A DNA stretch of 64,000 nt from Halorubrum sodomense (GTDB lineage: Archaea; Halobacteriota; Halobacteria; Halobacteriales; Haloferacaceae), in NCBI RefSeq assembly GCF_900111935.1, contig NZ_FOYN01000001.1, positions 666,069 through 730,068 of the forward strand, read 5' to 3'. Positions 6,828-49,778 of the stretch are shown one piece after another (position 1 is the first letter of the stretch; each line of letters starts with the position of its first letter). The notes under the pieces are model-generated. The model did not search any database. It was not told the DNA's origin and saw only the letters and a list, made by a program, of their open reading frames with translations. The position numbers and the translations under genes were made by a program.

Positions 6828-7208
6828 TTGTTCGAGGACCGACGGCGAACACCTCCAAAGCCCCAGCCGCGAGGCGGGCGCACGCTCGCTGCGCGCTTCA
6901 GTCGCTCGCGTTGCTCGCTCCCTCCAGTGCTTGCGTCGCCTGCGCCCGCCTCGCGGCTGCCCCTTTGAGTCCCGCCCCGCACCGCAACCGCCGGAAGACG
7001 GTCCTGCTCGCTCGCTTCGCTCGCTGCGCGGGCTGCGACTTCCGTGCTCCCGCTCGCTCCCTCCGGTCGCTCGCGGGACCGCACCTCACGCCTCCCCAGC
7101 CTCGCGGCTCCCTCCGCTTCGCTCCGGTCGCCGCGTCCCTCGCGCGTGCTGTCTCGCGGCCGCCGTGGGCGGCCGCTCGCAGGCACGCGCCACCGCACCT
7201 ATTTATAA
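6828..7208. repeat. Dispersed GC-rich intergenic element with 10-bp inverted ends (copy 1)
   Basis: About 380 bp bounded by TTATAAATAG (6828-6837) and its exact inverse CTATTTATAA (7199-7208). A further CTATTTATAA lies at 6769-6778. The interior is extremely GC-rich, with many CGCTCGC/GCGAGCG motifs able to form stems, and no frame looks like haloarchaeal protein. Read on the minus strand, it shares long blocks in the same order with 18441-18827 on the plus strand: GGTGGCGCGTGCC, GAGGCTGGGGAGGCGTGAGG, GGGCGGGACTC(G/A)AAGGGGCAG and GGCTGGGGCTT. This fits a MITE-like or structured-RNA repeat. It fills most of the gap between the CBS gene and the amidohydrolase gene. Confidence 0.75.
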
Positions 7209-7367
7209 GCGGTCGCGCGGCCGCTCACTCATATTTAAATATCGCGTCACTGGTACTGGGCTGATCCCCCGTCTCGACACCTGATCGCTCGGCAGCCCCG
7301 AACGGACGGGATCGGGGGGTCGCGAACGGACAGCCTCTTACCGGTCGACCGTCAGGAACGGACGGAC

Positions 7368-8693
7368 ATGCTGATCGCCGGAACCGTCGTCGCCGACTCC
7401 GAGACCGTCATCCCCGACGGCGCCGTCGTCGTCGAGGGGAACACGATCGCCGCGGTCGGCGAGGAGGCCGCACTCCGCGACCGCTACCCCGACCACGAGC
7501 GGCGCGCGTTCGACATCGTCACCCCCGGCCTCGTCGGCGGCCACGTCCACTCGGTCCAGTCGCTCGGACGCGGGATCGCCGACGACGACGCCCTCCTCGA
7601 CTGGCTGTTCGACGCCGTGCTCCCGATGGAGGCGGCGATGGACGCCGAGGCGACTCGGGCGGCCGCCGAGCTGGGCTACCTGGAGTGTCTCGAATCGGGG
7701 ACGACGACGGTCGTCGACCACCTCTCGGTGAACCACGCCGACGAGGCGTTCGAGGCCGCGATCGAAACCGGGATCCGCGCGCGGCTCGGCAAGGTGCTGA
7801 TGGACAAGGACTCGCCCGACGGGCTCATCGAGGAGACCGACGCCGCGCTCGCGGAGAGCGAGGAACTCATCCGGAAGTACCACGGCGCCGCCGGCGGTCG
7901 CGTCCGCTACGCGGTCACGCCGCGGTTCGCCGTCACCTGTACGGAGGCCTGCCTCCGCGGCTGCCGCGAGCTGGCCGACCGGTACGAGGGCGTGACGATC
8001 CACACTCACGCCAGCGAGAACGAAGACGAGGTAGAGACCGTCGAGGCCGACACCGGGAAGCGCAACGTCCGCTGGCTCGACGAGGTCGGCCTGACCGGCC
8101 CGGACGTGACGCTCGCGCACTGCGTCCACACGGACGAGCGCGAGCGCGAGGTGCTCGCGGAGACCGACACGGTCGTCACGCACTGCCCCTCCTCGAACAT
8201 GAAACTCGCATCGGGGATCGCCCCGGTTCAAGACTACCTCGACCGCGGGATCACGGTCGCGCTCGGCAACGACGGCCCGCCGTGTAACAACACGCTCGAC
8301 GCCTTCACCGAGATGCGGCAGGCGAGCCTGCTCGGAAAGGTCGACGCCCGGGACCCGACCCGCCTCCCGGCCGCGACCGTGCTGGAGATGGCGACCGAGG
8401 GCGGCGCCCGCGCCGCCGGCTTCGACCGCCTCGGCGCCCTCCGCGAGGGGCACCGCGCCGACGTGATCGGACTCTCGACCGACCTGACCAGGGCGACGCC
8501 GCTCCACGACCCGCTCTCGCACCTGGTGTACGCGGCCCACGGCGACGACGTGACCTTCGCGATGGTCGACGGCGAGGTCCGCTACGCCGACGGCGAGCAC
8601 GTCGGGACCGACGCCGCCGCGGTCCGCGAGCGCGCGACGCGCCACGCGGAGCGCGTGGTCGAGGCGGCCGGCATCGAGACGGCCGGCCCGTAG
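7368..8693 (+). CDS. Amidohydrolase, MTA/SAH (5'-deoxyadenosine) deaminase type
   Basis: 441 residues, the full length for the TRZ/ATZ-SAH deaminase branch of the amidohydrolase superfamily. Metal and catalytic motifs are visible: H59-V-H61 after VTPGLVGG, HTHASE (H212/H214, E217), LAHCVH (H251) and GNDGPP (D302). The N-terminal beta-sandwich part and the C-terminal return of that domain (GHRADVIGL ... HLVYAAHGDDV) are both present. These enzymes deaminate 5'-methylthioadenosine, S-adenosylhomocysteine or 5'-deoxyadenosine in SAM-by-product salvage; which substrate applies cannot be read from the sequence. It is alone between the repeat element and the DUF4382 lipoprotein gene. Confidence 0.9.
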   Translation: MLIAGTVVADSETVIPDGAVVVEGNTIAAVGEEAALRDRYPDHERRAFDIVTPGLVGGHVHSVQSLGRGIADDDALLDWLFDAVLPMEAAMDAEATRAAAELGYLECLESGTTTVVDHLSVNHADEAFEAAIETGIRARLGKVLMDKDSPDGLIEETDAALAESEELIRKYHGAAGGRVRYAVTPRFAVTCTEACLRGCRELADRYEGVTIHTHASENEDEVETVEADTGKRNVRWLDEVGLTGPDVTLAHCVHTDEREREVLAETDTVVTHCPSSNMKLASGIAPVQDYLDRGITVALGNDGPPCNNTLDAFTEMRQASLLGKVDARDPTRLPAATVLEMATEGGARAAGFDRLGALREGHRADVIGLSTDLTRATPLHDPLSHLVYAAHGDDVTFAMVDGEVRYADGEHVGTDAAAVRERATRHAERVVEAAGIETAGP

Positions 8694-39804: not shown

Positions 39805-41022
39805 GTGGCGGACGAGTACCTGAGACGTACCGCAATTACTCGCCTAACTCTCACCAGCGAGCAGAGAACGCTGCTCGACGCCACCATCTCTGAGTGGAAA
39901 CGCGCCTGTAACATCAGCAGTCGTATCGGATGGAGAGCAGATGAAGCGCGGAAAACACGTCTTCAAAAGCTCGCCTACGACGAGGTGCGAGAAGAGACAC
40001 GTCTCGGGAGACAACACACGATACTCGCAACTCATCAAGCCGCAGCGGCACTCAGCGGCATCGACGATATCGAAGCTCTCGAAGAGGATTACGCCACCTC
40101 TCGGCCGGAATTCACGGCAGACACGGTGAAGTACGACACGCGCACGATGACGTTGTTCGACGACGGAACCGTCTCTCTTTCTACAGTCGGAGACCGTATC
40201 CGATGTGAACTCGTGCTGCCGGACGACGAGAACGGATACCAATACCAGTACCTCGACAGCGAGGCGTTGGAGATCACCGAATCCACACTCTCACGGCGCG
40301 ATGGTGGGTACTACATTCACTTGGAGTTCCGGAAACCCAAGCCCAAGAAACGAGCCGAGGTACGGGATGACACCGAGGACAGGACAGTTCTCGGCGTCGA
40401 TCTCGGTATCGCAAACATCGCGACCACCTCGACAGCGTACTTCGCATCCGGTGACGAACTCCGGCACCGACACCGAGAGTTCGAGCGGATCCGCGGTCGG
40501 CTCCAACGGACGGGTACACAGTCCGCGCACCGAACGATTCAACAGATGAGTGGGCGGGAATCGCGACACGTCCGGAACACGCTTCACGAGGTCGCCAACG
40601 ACATCATCGACGAGGCCCTTGAATACGACTGCGAGTACATCGCCTTCGAGAACCTCCGGCACATCCGAGACCGTGCGCCTCGGGTGAAGGAGTTCCACCA
40701 GTGGGCGCATCGACAGCTCGTGGACATGGTAGAGTCCAAAGCGGACGCGGAGGGGCTCCGTGTCGTGTACGTGTCACCGGAGAACACGAGTCGGCGGTGC
40801 CCGGAGTGCGGTCACACGAGCGAAGGGAACCGAATCGCGCGCTCGGAGTTCGAGTGCCAATCGTGTGGTGAGACGGGGAACGCGGACTACGTCGGCGCGA
40901 AGAACGTCGGACGGAGGTACGTCCGTCGGGGCCTACAGCCGTCTCGGCGGACGGGCGACAGTCAACTCGCCCTGAAGTCAGGAACCGTGACGCCGAATCG
41001 GGGATTCGTCCCGAGCGACTGA
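39805..41022 (+). CDS. tnpB: TnpB RNA-guided endonuclease (IS1341-type, IS200/IS605 family)
   Basis: 405 residues from a GTG start. The RuvC active site is intact: Asp199 (GVDLGIANIAT), Glu282 (YIAFENLRHIRDR) and Asp361 (GNADYVGAKN). A zinc finger sits between the last two (C332, C335, C351, C354). The N-terminal helical/beta part (SEQRTLLDATISEWKRACNIS) is present. No tnpA transposase is next to it. It is less GC-rich than its neighbours. TnpB cuts DNA guided by an omega-RNA from the element's right end, which should begin near its stop. It lies 134 bp downstream of tRNA-Thr. Confidence 0.93.
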   Translation: MADEYLRRTAITRLTLTSEQRTLLDATISEWKRACNISSRIGWRADEARKTRLQKLAYDEVREETRLGRQHTILATHQAAAALSGIDDIEALEEDYATSRPEFTADTVKYDTRTMTLFDDGTVSLSTVGDRIRCELVLPDDENGYQYQYLDSEALEITESTLSRRDGGYYIHLEFRKPKPKKRAEVRDDTEDRTVLGVDLGIANIATTSTAYFASGDELRHRHREFERIRGRLQRTGTQSAHRTIQQMSGRESRHVRNTLHEVANDIIDEALEYDCEYIAFENLRHIRDRAPRVKEFHQWAHRQLVDMVESKADAEGLRVVYVSPENTSRRCPECGHTSEGNRIARSEFECQSCGETGNADYVGAKNVGRRYVRRGLQPSRRTGDSQLALKSGTVTPNRGFVPSD

Positions 41023-43729: not shown

Positions 43730-43798
43730 GCGGATTTCGGAACGCGTCTGGGGGCGGATTTCGGAACGCGTCTGGGGGCGGATTTCGGAACGCGTCTC
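43730..43798. repeat. Three tandem copies of a 24-bp unit
   Basis: A unit beginning GCGGATTTCGGAACGCGTCT is repeated exactly at 43730, 43754 and 43778 (the last copy diverges after CGTCT), starting four bases after the lipA stop codon. Units are perfectly conserved, suggesting recent slippage. Intergenic; no function evident. Confidence 0.9.
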
Positions 43799-43896
43799 CC
43801 TCGACAGCTGTCAGGCGCTTTCGAGGTATCGACTTTTGTTCAAACAGCGAATTATTTACCTCTCGGTGACCCAGCCTGTGTTAGTGAGACGTACAC

Positions 43897-45018
43897 ATGG
43901 GAACGACTGACTCGTCGATCGTCGACTCGGCGCGGGCCAGGCCGGGGCTTCTCTTCGTCGCCCTTCTCGGCGGCCTGCTGCTCGTCGACCTCGCGGCGAA
44001 GCTCGCGGGGGTGGGCCTCGGCCCGGTCGGGGGGTCGCTCTCGGTCGATCGGCTCGGCTCGAACCTCTGGAGCGGAATCGTAATCGGACTGGTGATCGGA
44101 CTCGCGGGCATCGGGCTCTCGATGACGTACAGCATCCTCTCGTTCGCGAACTTCTCGCACGGGGACCTCGTCAGCGTCGGGGCGTTCTCCGGCTGGGGGA
44201 TCGCCTTCCTCATCGCCGGGTTCGGCGAGATACCGGTCCGGGCGCTGCTGACCGTCCGCGACGCCGGGAACGCCTCGCCGGGCGACATCGGCGCGCACGT
44301 CCTCACGACGCCCGTGGCGATCCTCGTGGGGCTGCTCGCGGCGTTCGTCGTCACCGCGCTGCTCGCGGTGGCGCTCGACCGGGCGTTCTACAAGCCGATG
44401 CGGGACCGCGACGGAATCTCGCTGCTGATCGCCTCCATCGGCGCGGCGCTCATCGTCCGCTACCTGCTCCAGTTCGTCTACGGCTCCGACCGGCGCGGCG
44501 TGACCGCCAGCGTCGAGGCGTCGAACCTGGCGTTCGACCCGATCGGGGTCTCGGTGGACGCCCACGAACTCACCATCCTCGTGGCCGCGGTGGGGCTGAT
44601 GCTCGCGATGCACGCCATGCTTCAGCACACGAAACTCGGCACGGCGATGCGAGCGATGGCCGACAACAAGGACCTCGCGCTCATCACGGGGATCCCGGCC
44701 GAGCGCGTCGTCACCGCCACGTGGATCATCGGCGGCGGGCTCGCGGGCGCGTCCGGCTACCTCTACGTGCTGCTCCGCGGGACGATCCAGTTCGACTTCG
44801 GCTGGCTCCTCCTGCTGCTCATCTTCGCGGCCGTGATCCTCGGCGGGATCGGTTCCGTCTACGGCGCCATCGCGGGCGGTCTCGTCATCGGCGTCGTGTT
44901 CACCACGTCGACGATCTGGATCCCCTCGGACTTCAACCAGGCCGCGGCGTTCGGCGTGATGATCCTCATGCTGCTGTTGCGTCCCGAAGGGCTGTTCGGC
45001 GGGGTGACGACCACATGA
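43897..45018 (+). CDS. livH: Branched-chain amino acid ABC transporter permease LivH
   Basis: 373 residues, about eight transmembrane helices. Typical LivH features: GLAGIGLSMTYSILSFANFSHGDLVSVGAF near the N-terminus, GTAMRAMADNKDLALITGI (the ATPase-coupling EAA-like loop) and RPEGLFGG at the C-terminus. An inserted loop (GEIPVRALLTVRDAGNASPGDIG) is extra. It forms the membrane channel with LivM. First of four overlapping genes; the stop overlaps livM by ATGA. Confidence 0.95.
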   Translation: MGTTDSSIVDSARARPGLLFVALLGGLLLVDLAAKLAGVGLGPVGGSLSVDRLGSNLWSGIVIGLVIGLAGIGLSMTYSILSFANFSHGDLVSVGAFSGWGIAFLIAGFGEIPVRALLTVRDAGNASPGDIGAHVLTTPVAILVGLLAAFVVTALLAVALDRAFYKPMRDRDGISLLIASIGAALIVRYLLQFVYGSDRRGVTASVEASNLAFDPIGVSVDAHELTILVAAVGLMLAMHAMLQHTKLGTAMRAMADNKDLALITGIPAERVVTATWIIGGGLAGASGYLYVLLRGTIQFDFGWLLLLLIFAAVILGGIGSVYGAIAGGLVIGVVFTTSTIWIPSDFNQAAAFGVMILMLLLRPEGLFGGVTTT

Positions 45019-46388
45019 GCGCCGCCGACTCCCCCGACGGCGACGCGTCCGGCGGCGACGCTGCCGACGCGCCGGGCGGTCCCGAGGGCGACGCCGACGC
45101 GCCGGAGAGCGCGACGGCGGCGGTGGTCGAGGCCGCCCGAGAGAGCGACCTCGGACTCGTGATCGGGACGCTGCTCGCGATCTACGCGGCCGCGACGCTG
45201 CTGACGTTCACCAACGGGCTCAACAGCGTCGTCGGGCTCATGGAGACGCTGACGTTCCTGGGAATCGTCTACGCACTCACCGCGCTCGCCTTGAACCTCC
45301 AGTGGGGGTACACCGGCCTCTTCAACATCGGCGTCGCCGGCTTCATGGCCGTCGGCGTGTACACGATGGGGATGGTCGTCCGGTCGCCCGACCCCGCGTT
45401 CGGCCCCCCCGGACTCGGGCTGCCGCTCCCGGTCGGGATCGTCGCCGGCACGGGGATGGCGGCGCTGCTCGGCGCCGTCGCCGCCCTGCCGGCCCTCCGG
45501 CTCAAGGCCGACTACCTCGCGATCGTGACCCTCGGTCTCTCGGAGATCGTCCGGCTGTCGCTCCAGTCGAGCGCCTTCGACAGCTTCCTGCGCGACACGA
45601 TCGGGGCCGGAACGGGCGGCGGTCGCGGGATGGGAATGCCGGACAACCCGGTCCGCGACCTGTTCTTAGTCGACGGACAGGCGGGGGATCCGACCGCGCT
45701 CGGCGACCTCGTCTTCGGCGTCTTCGGCCCCGACGGGCTCGGCATCTCGCAGCCGATCCTCATCGGGTGGGGGTACATCGCCGTCCTCGCCGTCTTCCTC
45801 GTCGGCTTCTACCTCGTCTTGGAGCGCCTCGGCCGCTCGCCGTTCGGCCGGACGATGAAGGCGATCCGGGAGGACGAACTCGTCGCCGACTCGCTCGGTA
45901 AGGACGTGAACCTCGTGAAGATCAAGGTGTTCGTCATCGGCTGCGCGCTGATGGGGCTCGCGGGCATCCTCTGGTTCGGCAGCCAGGGGAACGTCTCCCC
46001 GACCCCGCAGTTCCGCCCGCTCTTGACGTTCTACGTGTTCATCGCGGTGATCATCGGCGGATCCGGGTCGAACACCGGCTCGGTCCTCGGCGGCATCGTC
46101 TTCGCCGCGGTGCTGTTCGAGGGGCCGCGGCGCGTCGGCGGGACGGTCCGGGGGCTCATCGACGCGGAGACGCCGCCGTCGTTCGCAGACGCGGTCGCCA
46201 CGCTGGACCCGGTGACGTTCCTCGCGTACGCGACCGAGAACATCGCGCCGCTCCAGTTCGTCTTCCTCGGGCTCGTCCTCGTGTTCATCATTCACCGGCG
46301 GCCCGAGGGGATCCTCGGCGACCGGATCGAGACGGCCGCGGCCGTCGACCTCTCGGAGCGGCCCGCCGGAGGTGAGACCGATGAGTAG
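45015..46388 (+). CDS. livM: Branched-chain amino acid ABC transporter permease LivM
   Basis: 457 residues. An acidic N-terminal extension of about 45 residues precedes about nine transmembrane helices. LivM motifs: LALNLQWGYTGLFNIGVAGFMAVGVY, ALRLKADYLAIVTLGLSEI, PFGRTMKAIREDELVADSLGKDV (coupling loop) and VIIGGSGSNTGSVLGG; a C-terminal RRPEGILGD. It overlaps livH by 4 bp and livG by 8 bp, so the four genes are one transcript. Confidence 0.95.
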   Translation: MSAADSPDGDASGGDAADAPGGPEGDADAPESATAAVVEAARESDLGLVIGTLLAIYAAATLLTFTNGLNSVVGLMETLTFLGIVYALTALALNLQWGYTGLFNIGVAGFMAVGVYTMGMVVRSPDPAFGPPGLGLPLPVGIVAGTGMAALLGAVAALPALRLKADYLAIVTLGLSEIVRLSLQSSAFDSFLRDTIGAGTGGGRGMGMPDNPVRDLFLVDGQAGDPTALGDLVFGVFGPDGLGISQPILIGWGYIAVLAVFLVGFYLVLERLGRSPFGRTMKAIREDELVADSLGKDVNLVKIKVFVIGCALMGLAGILWFGSQGNVSPTPQFRPLLTFYVFIAVIIGGSGSNTGSVLGGIVFAAVLFEGPRRVGGTVRGLIDAETPPSFADAVATLDPVTFLAYATENIAPLQFVFLGLVLVFIIHRRPEGILGDRIETAAAVDLSERPAGGETDE

Positions 46389-47292
46389 CGACGTTCCGGA
46401 GGCTGGCGACGTGGCCGACGCGGAGGACGTCGCCGACACGGTCGACGCGACGGACGCGACGGTCGACGAACCCGAGGCGAACGACAGCGCGGTCGAGGAG
46501 GCGGCGAAACACGTCCCCTCCGGGGCGCCCCCGCTCCGCGTGGAGGGGCTGGTCAAGCGGTTCGGCGGCGTCACCGCCGTCGACGGCGCCTCCTTCGAGG
46601 TGGAGTCCGGGTCGCTGACGGGACTCATCGGCCCGAACGGCGCCGGGAAGTCGACGACGTTCAACTGTATCACCGGCGTCCACGAGCCGACCGCCGGGCG
46701 GGTGTACTTCGAGGGCGAGGACGTCACCGGGCTCAGGCCCCACGAGATCGCCCGGAAGGGGCTGGTGCGGACGTTCCAGATCGCCCGGGAGCTCTCCGAG
46801 ATGACCGTCTTGGAGAACCTCATGCTCGCGCCGCAGGGCCAGCTCGGCGAGTCCGCGATCCGGGCGGTGACGCCCGGGCTCCGCGGCGCGGTCGTCGCGG
46901 AGGAGACCGAGCTCCGCGAGCGGGCCTGGGAGACGCTGGAGTTCTTCGAGATCGACCACCTCGCGCACGAACCCGCGGGGAACCTCTCCGGCGGCCAGCG
47001 GAAGCTGCTGGAGATGGCCCGCGCGCTGATGACCGACCCCGAGATGGTGCTGCTCGACGAGCCGCTCGCCGGGGTCAACCCGACCCTTCAGGAGAAGCTC
47101 TTGGACCGGATCCACGACCTGCGGGCTGACGGTTACACCTTCCTGCTCGTCGAACACGACATGGACGTCATCATGAGCAACTGCGAACGCGTCATCGTCA
47201 TGTACCAGGGCAGCGTGCTCGCCGAGGGGACCGGCGACGAGATACGGAACGACGAGCGGGTCATCGAGGCGTACCTGGGTGAGGACCTATGA
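46381..47292 (+). CDS. livG: Branched-chain amino acid ABC transporter ATPase LivG
   Basis: 303 residues. An acidic N-terminal extension (about 1-50) precedes the ATPase: Walker A GPNGAGKS, GLVRTFQIARELSEMTVLENLMLAP (the LivG-type Q-loop), signature LSGGQRKLLEMARAL, Walker B MVLLDEPLAGVNP and switch His in LLVEHDMDVIMSNCER. It powers import with LivF. The longer frame start at 46372 adds only three codons; the ATG at 46381 is chosen. Confidence 0.96.
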   Translation: MSSDVPEAGDVADAEDVADTVDATDATVDEPEANDSAVEEAAKHVPSGAPPLRVEGLVKRFGGVTAVDGASFEVESGSLTGLIGPNGAGKSTTFNCITGVHEPTAGRVYFEGEDVTGLRPHEIARKGLVRTFQIARELSEMTVLENLMLAPQGQLGESAIRAVTPGLRGAVVAEETELRERAWETLEFFEIDHLAHEPAGNLSGGQRKLLEMARALMTDPEMVLLDEPLAGVNPTLQEKLLDRIHDLRADGYTFLLVEHDMDVIMSNCERVIVMYQGSVLAEGTGDEIRNDERVIEAYLGEDL

Positions 47293-48104
47293 GCGCCGAC
47301 GAGACGAACGACGCGGTCGACGCGAACGACGCGGTCGAAGTCGACCGGGAGGCGGTCGAGGCCGACGCGGACGCCGGAACCGCCCACGCGATCGACGGCG
47401 ACGCGATCCTGCGGATCCGCGACCTCGACGCCGGCTACGGCGACCTCCAGATCCTCTCGGACGTGGTCTTAGACGTCGCGGACGAGGAGTTCGTCACCAT
47501 CGTCGGGCCCAACGGGGCCGGGAAGTCGACGGTGATGAAGACCGTCTTCGGGCTCACGACGCACATGGCCGGCACCGTCGAGTTCGAGGGAGAGCCGATC
47601 CACGGGCTCGCGCCGGAGCAGATCATCCGCGAGGGGATCGGGTTCGTCCCCCAGAACGACAACGTGTTCCCCGGGCTCAGCGTCCGCGAGAACCTCGAGA
47701 TGGGCGCGTACATCCTCGACGAGGTGCCGGAAGACCAGATCGAGACGATATACGACCGGTTCCCGATCCTCCGGGAGCGCAGCGACCAGAAGGCCGGGAC
47801 GCTCTCCGGCGGGCAGCGGCAGATGGTCGCGATGGGGCGGGCGCTCATGCTCGATCCGGACCTCCTGCTGCTCGACGAGCCCTCGGCCGGGCTCGCCCCC
47901 GACCTCGTCTCCGACATGTTCGACCGCATCGACCGGATCAACGACTCGGGGACCGCGGTGCTGATGGTCGAGCAGAACGCGAAGGAGGCGCTGCGCCGCT
48001 GCGACCGCGGCTACGTGCTGGTGAACGGCGAGAACCGCTACACCGACCGCGGCGACGTGCTGCTCGCCGACGAGGACGTGCGGCGCGACTTCCTGGGCGG
48101 ATAA
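47289..48104 (+). CDS. livF: Branched-chain amino acid ABC transporter ATPase LivF
   Basis: 271 residues. Acidic N-terminal extension (about 1-38), then Walker A GPNGAGKS, GFVPQNDNVFPGLSVRENLEMGAYI (LivF-type), signature LSGGQRQMVAMGRAL, Walker B LLLLDEPSAGLAPD, and LMVEQNAKEALRRCDRGYVLVNG, where LivF has VEQN instead of the usual switch His context. Overlaps livG by ATGA. Last gene of the operon; the binding-protein gene is convergent downstream. Confidence 0.96.
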   Translation: MSADETNDAVDANDAVEVDREAVEADADAGTAHAIDGDAILRIRDLDAGYGDLQILSDVVLDVADEEFVTIVGPNGAGKSTVMKTVFGLTTHMAGTVEFEGEPIHGLAPEQIIREGIGFVPQNDNVFPGLSVRENLEMGAYILDEVPEDQIETIYDRFPILRERSDQKAGTLSGGQRQMVAMGRALMLDPDLLLLDEPSAGLAPDLVSDMFDRIDRINDSGTAVLMVEQNAKEALRRCDRGYVLVNGENRYTDRGDVLLADEDVRRDFLGG

Positions 48105-48201: not shown

Positions 48202-49572
48202 CTACTGGTTCAGCACGCTCGACCACTGGCTGGTGTACGTCGGCTGGTTCGGCTCGAAGGAGACGCGCTGCGTGATCGTCCCGTCGCGCTCCCGGAAGGC
48301 GTTCACGTACGCCTCCTCTAACGACTGTCCGTAGGCGTCGTTGAGGTACAGCGTGCCGGAGCTCTCAGCGCCGACGTTGTCGCCGACGGCGAGGTCCGCC
48401 ATCGCGGGCCCCTGGAGCAGGTCGGAGGGCGCCGTCCGGAAGATGTAGCCGTTGTCCTCTAAGTCCGTCACGTTCGGGTCGGTCGACGACGGCGAGATGC
48501 CCACGACGCCGTTCGGGATGAACACCTGGTCTGCGACCTGGAGGTTGACGTTCGAGGACGCCGGACCGACGACGGCGCCGTAGCCGGCGTTGACGATGGC
48601 GTTCGCGCCCGAGATACCGGCCTGGGGGTTGGTCTGGGTGTCCTCCACGCGGGTCTCGACGTCGACGTTGATACCGGCGTCGTTGACCTGCGTCGCCGCG
48701 AGCAGCGCGCCGTCGCGGATCGGGACGCCGAGCGGACCGAGGTCACCCGTCTCCGGCATCAACACGCCGACCCGAGCGGTGAACGAGTCGACGCCGACGG
48801 GGGGTTCGGCCGTCGCGTTCAGGTCCTCCTCGGTGAGGTCGTTCCCGAACTCGACGGTGTCGATGGTCTCCAGTTCGCCGTCCTGGAAGTCGATGATGTC
48901 GTAGGCGGCCGTCGCGATGTCGCCGTTGATGTCGAAGTTGACCCTCGAGGACGCGCCGACGTACTGGACGGGGTCGCCGCCCGCAACGGTCTCGACCGCG
49001 TCCGGGAGGTCCGCGGGTCCGAACTCCTCGCCGCCGGGGTTGGCGACGGTCCGAACCCGGTCGCGGATCGCCTCGCCGTCGTTCTCGCCCGCGGCGGTGG
49101 CCGCGAGGATCTGGACCGCCATCGCGTCGTACGCCTGCGCGGTGAACACGCCCGGCGCCTCGCCGTACGCCTCCTCGTACGACGACGTGAAGAACTCCGC
49201 GCCCGGACCGCCCGCGGAGGGCGCGGTGCCGATCACGTTGTTCATGTCGTTGTCGACCTCGCTCGGGAGGTCCCTGTCGATCAGGCCGTCGGGGACGATG
49301 ATGTCCAGATCGGGCGCGCTGTCGGCGAACTCCGAGTAGAAGTCGCGGAACAGCTGAATGCCGGACTGCGGGAACCCGACGACCATCACGGCGTCGGGGA
49401 TGCTGCTGGCGTCGCCCCCGCCGCCGTCGGATCCGTTGCCGCCGCCGGATCCGTTGCCACCACCGGTTCCGTTGCCGCCGTCACCGCTCTCCGTCGAACA
49501 GCCGGCGAGCCCCGCGATACCGACCGCGCCGGCACCCCTGAGTACGTCGCGTCGCTGGATTCTTCGCTTCAT
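48202..49572 (-). CDS. Branched-chain amino acid ABC transporter substrate-binding lipoprotein, circularly permuted
   Basis: 456 residues from MKRRIQRRDVL, a Tat-type signal with lipobox LAGC (Cys25) and a Gly/Ser/Asn linker. The order of the two halves is reversed relative to LivJ/K. Residues about 55-245 (IPDAVMVVGFPQSG ... GVFTAQAYDAMAVQILAA ... YDIIDFQDGELETI) are what is normally the C-terminal half. Residues about 263-456 (ARVGVLMPETGDLGPLG ... VEDTQTNPQAGI ... ISPSSTDPNVTDL ... LYLNDAYGQSLEEAY ... TYTSQWSSVLNQ) are normally the N-terminal half, and the protein stops exactly where that half should continue into PDAVMVVGF. A 20-residue linker (NDLTEEDLNATAEPPVGVDS) joins the original ends. 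It probably delivers amino acids to LivHMGF. Confidence 0.9.
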   Translation of the reverse strand: MKRRIQRRDVLRGAGAVGIAGLAGCSTESGDGGNGTGGGNGSGGGNGSDGGGGDASSIPDAVMVVGFPQSGIQLFRDFYSEFADSAPDLDIIVPDGLIDRDLPSEVDNDMNNVIGTAPSAGGPGAEFFTSSYEEAYGEAPGVFTAQAYDAMAVQILAATAAGENDGEAIRDRVRTVANPGGEEFGPADLPDAVETVAGGDPVQYVGASSRVNFDINGDIATAAYDIIDFQDGELETIDTVEFGNDLTEEDLNATAEPPVGVDSFTARVGVLMPETGDLGPLGVPIRDGALLAATQVNDAGINVDVETRVEDTQTNPQAGISGANAIVNAGYGAVVGPASSNVNLQVADQVFIPNGVVGISPSSTDPNVTDLEDNGYIFRTAPSDLLQGPAMADLAVGDNVGAESSGTLYLNDAYGQSLEEAYVNAFRERDGTITQRVSFEPNQPTYTSQWSSVLNQ

Positions 49573-49598: not shown

Positions 49599-49604
49599 TT
49601 ATAA
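49599..49604 (-). promoter_or_regulatory. TATA box of the binding-protein gene
   Basis: TTATAA on the minus strand (CGCTTATAACGG) is 27-32 bp before the ATG at 49572 and supports that start rather than the two in-frame ATGs further upstream. Confidence 0.55.
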
Positions 49605-49778
49605 GCGTATCCACGACCACAAATACGACACCGGTCGAATTCGACCGGATCGGACGGCTCCCGTCGCGTATCGATGCGCTCTACCGACGGTTCGTCGATC
49701 GGCTCCCGAGCCCGAACCGGCCTCATTTTCTCGCGCCGATAGCAACTCGGCCGGCGCCGCGAACGCGGGCGCCTCGCC

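Follow-up and report, generated by a model that had tools for sequence, protein, structure and literature searches.

A naturally occurring, circularly permuted Liv-type substrate-binding protein in Halorubrum sodomense and related haloarchaea

The analyzed window, i.e., the whole stretch of 64,000 nucleotides from Halorubrum sodomense, encodes a Liv-type substrate-binding protein with swapped halves. The gene is a natural circular permutation. Its ORF runs on the minus strand from 49572 to 48202, encodes 456 amino acids and contains no internal stops. The features of the gene are as follows (window coordinates).

49600..49606, minus strand: TATA-like sequence TTATAA approximately 30 nt upstream of the ATG, archaeal promoter candidate, read by eye
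48202..49572, minus strand: complete gene of the permuted Liv-type substrate-binding protein P0001 (456 aa), a predicted lipoprotein
49498..49572, minus strand: signal peptide that has an RR motif and a lipobox, to Cys25, predicted from sequence and conservation
49402..49497, minus strand: tether rich in Gly, Asn, Ser and Asp, residues 26-57, with a length that varies between relatives
48847..49401, minus strand: residues 58-242, first block of the present chain, equivalent to the second half of ordinary proteins (from profile 191-311 onward)
48784..48846, minus strand: linker that bridges the old C- and N-termini, approximately residues 243-263, conserved in clade A as EEDxNATAxDPVGVDxFEA
48205..48783, minus strand: residues 264-456, last block of the present chain, equivalent to the first half of ordinary proteins (profile 2-186)

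The order of the halves was recognized by Pfam and PDB searches with native and re-ordered chains. In native order, the protein matched PF13458 in two stretches with 111 bits, the best of which aligned residues 266-453 to profile positions 2-186. The re-ordered chain, i.e., residues 263-456 followed by 58-248, matched in a single stretch over profile positions 2-311 with 129.5 bits. Both chains passed the curated cut-off of 31.7 bits. When the halves were searched alone, residues 263-456 aligned to profile 2-186 with 88 bits, and residues 58-248 aligned to profile 191-311 with 32 bits, barely above the cut-off. Because the halves join at profile 186/191, no sizeable part was lost or doubled. 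The structure 3td9 gave two swapped stretches with the native chain (266-452 to 17-199 and 119-182 to 265-328), and a single stretch, 17-328, with the re-ordered chain. The conventional Type I topology, i.e., the ordinary N-to-C order of the halves, is absent. The protein thus belongs to the PF13458 sequence family and stands outside its conventional topology, since the matching stretches are swapped and become continuous only once re-ordered. The best Pfam and PDB matches were Liv-type and not of the glucose/galactose-binding MglB family. The stop codon falls in the loop just ahead of the strand PDAVMVVGF, which is the first strand in this protein. The original prediction had proposed the permutation, the match of each part to the opposite half of LivJ/K proteins and this stop position, and all three were borne out. 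The lipoprotein-type signal, the Gly-rich tether and the linker of approximately 20 residues, which it had also described, were found as sequence features.

In the signal peptide, the RR motif, A23, G24 and C25 showed no variation across 23 relatives, and the Pfam TAT_signal model gave 16.6 bits, under its cut-off. A terminator and promoter scan returned nothing useful, and the search for DNA repeats near the gene found nothing beyond ordinary GC-rich coding DNA.

An AlphaFold model was obtained with 36 alignment rows (pLDDT 73, pTM 0.74), in which residues 1-55 were disordered. The alignment of the 23 close relatives only gave a pLDDT of 31, and the model became usable after distant alphaproteobacterial halves were added as separate rows. 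Residues 264-456 of the model superposed on residues 1-192 of LIV-BP (2liv) and of LBP (2lbp), with Z of approximately 12 and rmsd of approximately 3.5. Nearly all rows of the fold search were limited to residues 263-456, because such searches align sequentially. The fold of the first half, i.e., the ordinary second half, rests on sequence and model confidence. Lobe 2 of LIV-BP is taken here to comprise residues 121-249 and 330-344. The cut, at LIV-BP 192/193, lies within these residues, and the new termini would therefore belong to lobe 2, where they separate a helix from a strand, as had been predicted. Since the old N-terminus belongs to lobe 1 and the old C-terminus to lobe 2, their linker has to pass between the lobes, and a fourth inter-lobe crossing is inferred.

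The amino-acid pocket of LivJ includes Ser79, Thr102, Tyr150, Tyr202 and Glu226. Among the pocket positions of the window protein, S340, T364, Y414 and D95 were identical across all in-family proteins, whatever their topology, and F67 was Phe or Tyr in each topology.

The partner genes of the transporter were found on the opposite strand.

43897..45018, plus strand: LivH permease (PF02653), in the convergent partner operon
45015..46388, plus strand: LivM permease (PF02653)
46381..47292, plus strand: LivG ATPase (PF00005 and PF12399)
47289..48104, plus strand: LivF ATPase (PF00005; NCBIfam LivF was the best match, under its cut-off)

The binding-protein gene, in any order, was convergent with LivHMGF in nearly all loci examined. 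In a few loci it was separate from LivHMGF, or the operon lay outside the fetched stretch. The gene order LipA-LivHMGF-SBP-GGT was common to the window, with the permuted gene, and to another genome of the genus (G041), with an ordinary gene. Ordinary and permuted forms thus share one place.

Of 52 genomes surveyed within the genus, about thirty had a full-length gene in permuted order with 75-94% identity, and about seventeen further genomes had a second full-length group with 48-52% identity. The permuted order was seen on two dozen independent contigs of Halorubrum, Halohasta and Natronomonas; named carriers include Halorubrum distributum, H. coriense, H. ezzemoulense, H. trapanicum, Halohasta salina and a Natronomonas. 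Of the matches listed at the levels of family and class, the top ones were full-length and permuted, except for one gene split by an insertion, and the permuted order was present in at least seven haloarchaeal families (groups f1, f3, f4, f5, f6, f7 and f8). Among the matches listed from other Halobacteriota outside the class, all had ordinary order. No relative of the binding protein was found on viral contigs. Natural permuted binding proteins had been called rare beforehand. This holds for binding proteins at large but not for the haloarchaeal Liv family, in which permuted genes occur widely across Halobacteria. In a codon comparison of 17 relatives over residues 55-456, dN/dS was 0.14-0.34, i.e., purifying selection.

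Binding-protein trees were built with the halves set in a common order. The permuted genes fell into three clades, i.e., A (with the window gene), B (most other genera) and C (f3 g34), with ordinary genes in between, and one permuted gene (L097) formed a lone long branch near C. In the tree of the binding protein only, clades A, B and C were each supported at 100/100. AU tests on the binding protein rejected A, B and C as one clade (p=0.015 in the first set, p=0.0033 in the wider set) and the pairs A+B (p=0.0065) and A+C (p=0.028), and did not reject B+C (p=0.10). The tree of the four LivHMGF proteins, which are independent data, gave the same picture of three separate permuted clades and rejected A+B+C (1.9e-7), A+C (1.8e-7), B+C (7e-5) and also A+B. 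Single halves of the binding protein were weak: the N-half gave p=0.055, and the C-half left one permuted clade unrejected. These tests depend on the model; the group of all permuted genes was set by order, and the pairwise groups were named after tree inspection. With ordinary order at the root, parsimony required three gains, versus one gain and seven reversions. The linkers were also unlike, that of clade A differing from FEGENPDGAGPSADESPGGxGRE in clade B and DIPQPEPSGSGSGADRT in clade C; the linker of L097 resembles that of a basal B gene. When the clade A linker was compared with the spacer before strand 1 of ordinary genes, the best match (L135) was reached in 1 of 500 shuffles, which is weak as the best of approximately 35 spacers, and no informative spacer source was matched for the B and C linkers. 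Position 67 was Phe in clade A and in the neighboring ordinary sister group, and Tyr in B and C. On these sequence comparisons, at least two independent permutations appear well supported, and three, i.e., one each for A, B and C, are likely.

The cut site is common to all three clades, i.e., a loop of three residues that connects a helix to a strand in lobe 2 (e.g., SYASQLGTAL-NDN-PDVLMVVGF among ordinary genes). Genes of A and C and L097 terminate at one alignment column, and those of B mostly at most 1-2 residues off. Three chance cuts in one loop are unlikely, which suggests that a constraint, or fewer origins, was at work. The shared cut may reflect structural tolerance, selection for tethering at lobe 2, or both.

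Three genes, i.e., L126 (G421), L131 (G415) and L134 (G370), start past the first strand and helix, which come last in these proteins. Their new cut is in lobe 1, between helix 1 and strand 2, and the lobe 2 junction is re-closed without a scar (ALSDDPDTLVVIGY). They carry B-type linkers, are nested in clade B in both trees and are placed at the same LivHMGF locus. When one re-permuted protein (P0002) was searched against 391 genomes of the class, no fourth full-length match was found, so the total is 3 of 391. A single clade of the three was rejected on LivHMGF (p=3.7e-4), and the second permutation, by which an already permuted gene would have been re-cut in lobe 1 and re-closed in lobe 2, therefore probably occurred twice. 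In both kinds, a few residues are doubled at the new ends (GEI/SEI and DLDI/GLEI), which is the expected outcome of trimming a duplicated gene. Because the lobe 2 junction was restored scarlessly, a return to ordinary order is possible. The stronger proposal, that the haloarchaeal Liv locus is a hot spot with at least three parallel same-loop permutations and two re-permutations at a second shared site, caused by selection for a change of the tethered lobe (or for a fourth hinge strand) and not by drift, is tentative, and we do not yet call it probable.

We hold it to be quite probable that the window gene encodes a functional permuted amino-acid-binding Liv protein, which arose through duplication, fusion and trimming, with at least two and probably three origins of the permuted form, and whose tether, once on lobe 1, is now on lobe 2. 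The protein would be exported and carry a lipid on Cys25, with its Gly-rich tether anchoring lobe 2 instead of lobe 1. Its lobes would close around an amino-acid-like ligand, which would be passed to LivHM; no binding data exist and expression is unproven. At this locus, ordinary genes would have been permuted where they stood, the likeliest route being tandem duplication, then fusion, then trimming, which is the permutation model reviewed in PMC3320104. Around the permuted genes, no second-copy remnants, fused tandem dimer or other intermediate were found. The authors of a Treponema study proposed that permutation is an adaptation to tethering (PMC4990184). In the haloarchaeal genes, ordinary and permuted orthologues alike resemble tethered lipoproteins, and thus tethering alone is not the cause. 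The choice of the tethered lobe might be.

Three other explanations were considered. A single early permutation, followed by many reversions or by recombination through which the permuted gene passed from the LivHMGF locus of one lineage to that of another, agrees with the fact that A, B and C are cut in the same loop, with the C-half, which alone is compatible with one clade, and with the B+C grouping that the binding protein alone does not reject. The old junction was also restored in the re-permuted genes. Nevertheless, seven reversions would be needed on the rooted tree against three gains, one clade is rejected by both the full binding-protein tree and the LivHMGF tree at the values given above, the three linkers are dissimilar, and Phe67 is common to clade A and its ordinary neighbors. 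A single origin is thus considered unlikely, and separate origins of the permuted clades are preferred.

The protein may instead fold and have lost the ordinary binding role, serving as a sensor, scavenger or structural lipoprotein. The moved tether and a fourth inter-lobe crossing could hinder closing, and the missing binding data leave room for this, but the pocket positions are kept in every topology, the pairing with LivHMGF is constant, and Treponema MglB-2, although permuted, retains glucose binding and changes shape upon it (PMC4990184). We regard a lost binding role as very improbable. An assembly error, gene decay or a chimera has practically no standing, as no supporting evidence was found; colinear full-length permuted genes occur in many independent isolates and assemblies, the dN/dS values speak against decay, and a TATA-like sequence lies immediately upstream of the permuted start. 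The original prediction had excluded simple decay, with which the full-length relatives and purifying selection agree. It had named an alignment in ordinary order or an assembly error as grounds for refutation, and both fail: the halves align in swapped order, and dozens of independent genomes share the permuted order. The functional permuted binding protein remains the preferred explanation.

Ordinary LivJ and LivK (HAAT family, PF13458; 2liv, 1usg and 3td9) have the sequence family, lobes, pocket and LivHMGF partners in common with the window protein, and ordinary haloarchaeal Liv relatives also share the lipoprotein-type signal. The window protein differs from ordinary LivJ and LivK in its swapped halves, termini in lobe 2 (192/193), linker between the old termini and lobe 2 tether. 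A natural permuted Type I binding protein is known, i.e., TpMglB-2 (Tp0684) of Treponema pallidum, classified as Type Ic / Cluster Bc (PMC4990184). As is inferred for the window protein, it is a tethered lipoprotein with a fourth inter-lobe crossing, but it is a sugar binder of another family for which one topology was described (PMC4990184). TpMglB-2 is cut in the N-lobe after the third strand, and its first three strands are C-terminal, whereas the window protein is cut in lobe 2. The re-permuted haloarchaeal genes are cut in lobe 1 like TpMglB-2, but after the first strand and helix. The permuted part of TpMglB-2 has 13% identity to its ordinary relative, whereas the haloarchaeal halves have approximately 50-65% to orthologues at the same locus. 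DNA methyltransferases and saposin/swaposin were permuted by duplication (PMC3320104), and permuted GTPases are of two kinds (PMC2430557). These families were also permuted in nature, in some cases at two or more cuts, but they are not binding proteins, and unlike them, the haloarchaeal locus shows same-site repeats and re-permutation among orthologues at one conserved place. In the literature searched, nothing was found that links circular permutation to haloarchaeal binding proteins. A permuted Type I binding protein is thus known, and the cut site, the family and the repeated and serial permutation at one orthologous locus appear new, as no description of them was found.

Natural circular permutations are usually known as single events between distant relatives, which makes it difficult to examine what causes them and what they cost. 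At one conserved haloarchaeal operon, orthologues in ordinary, permuted and re-permuted order are found with approximately 50-65% identity, once within one genus, in culturable archaea. With three orders at one locus, stepwise permutation, loop reuse and the effects of tether and hinge on binding and permease delivery become testable. It is an unusually clean natural experiment in re-wiring a protein without functional loss, as far as function can be inferred. Many genes annotated as ABC transporter substrate-binding protein are mis-modeled by linear profiles.

Variation in copy number and integrity was also seen. Tandem permuted pairs lie near one LivHMGF operon (L090 and L091, in G246 and G380), and another genome has two permuted copies approximately 11 kb apart (G152:C1:1445377 and 1456934). 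One same-genus genome (G018, 99% complete) had no relative at E 1e-20, i.e., a loss of the binding protein and perhaps of the operon. In L125 (G017), at 7156-8551, a clade A permuted gene is split by an insertion that carries a transposase-like ORF of 396 codons and has terminal inverted repeats (CAGTACTTCACAAAGC / CAGTACCTCACAAAGC). In the window, a TnpB-like protein (OrfB_IS605, Cas12f1-like TNB domain) is encoded at 39805-41022 on the plus strand, and a 24-bp direct repeat occurs three times at 43730-43801, between a lipoyl synthase-like gene and LivH.
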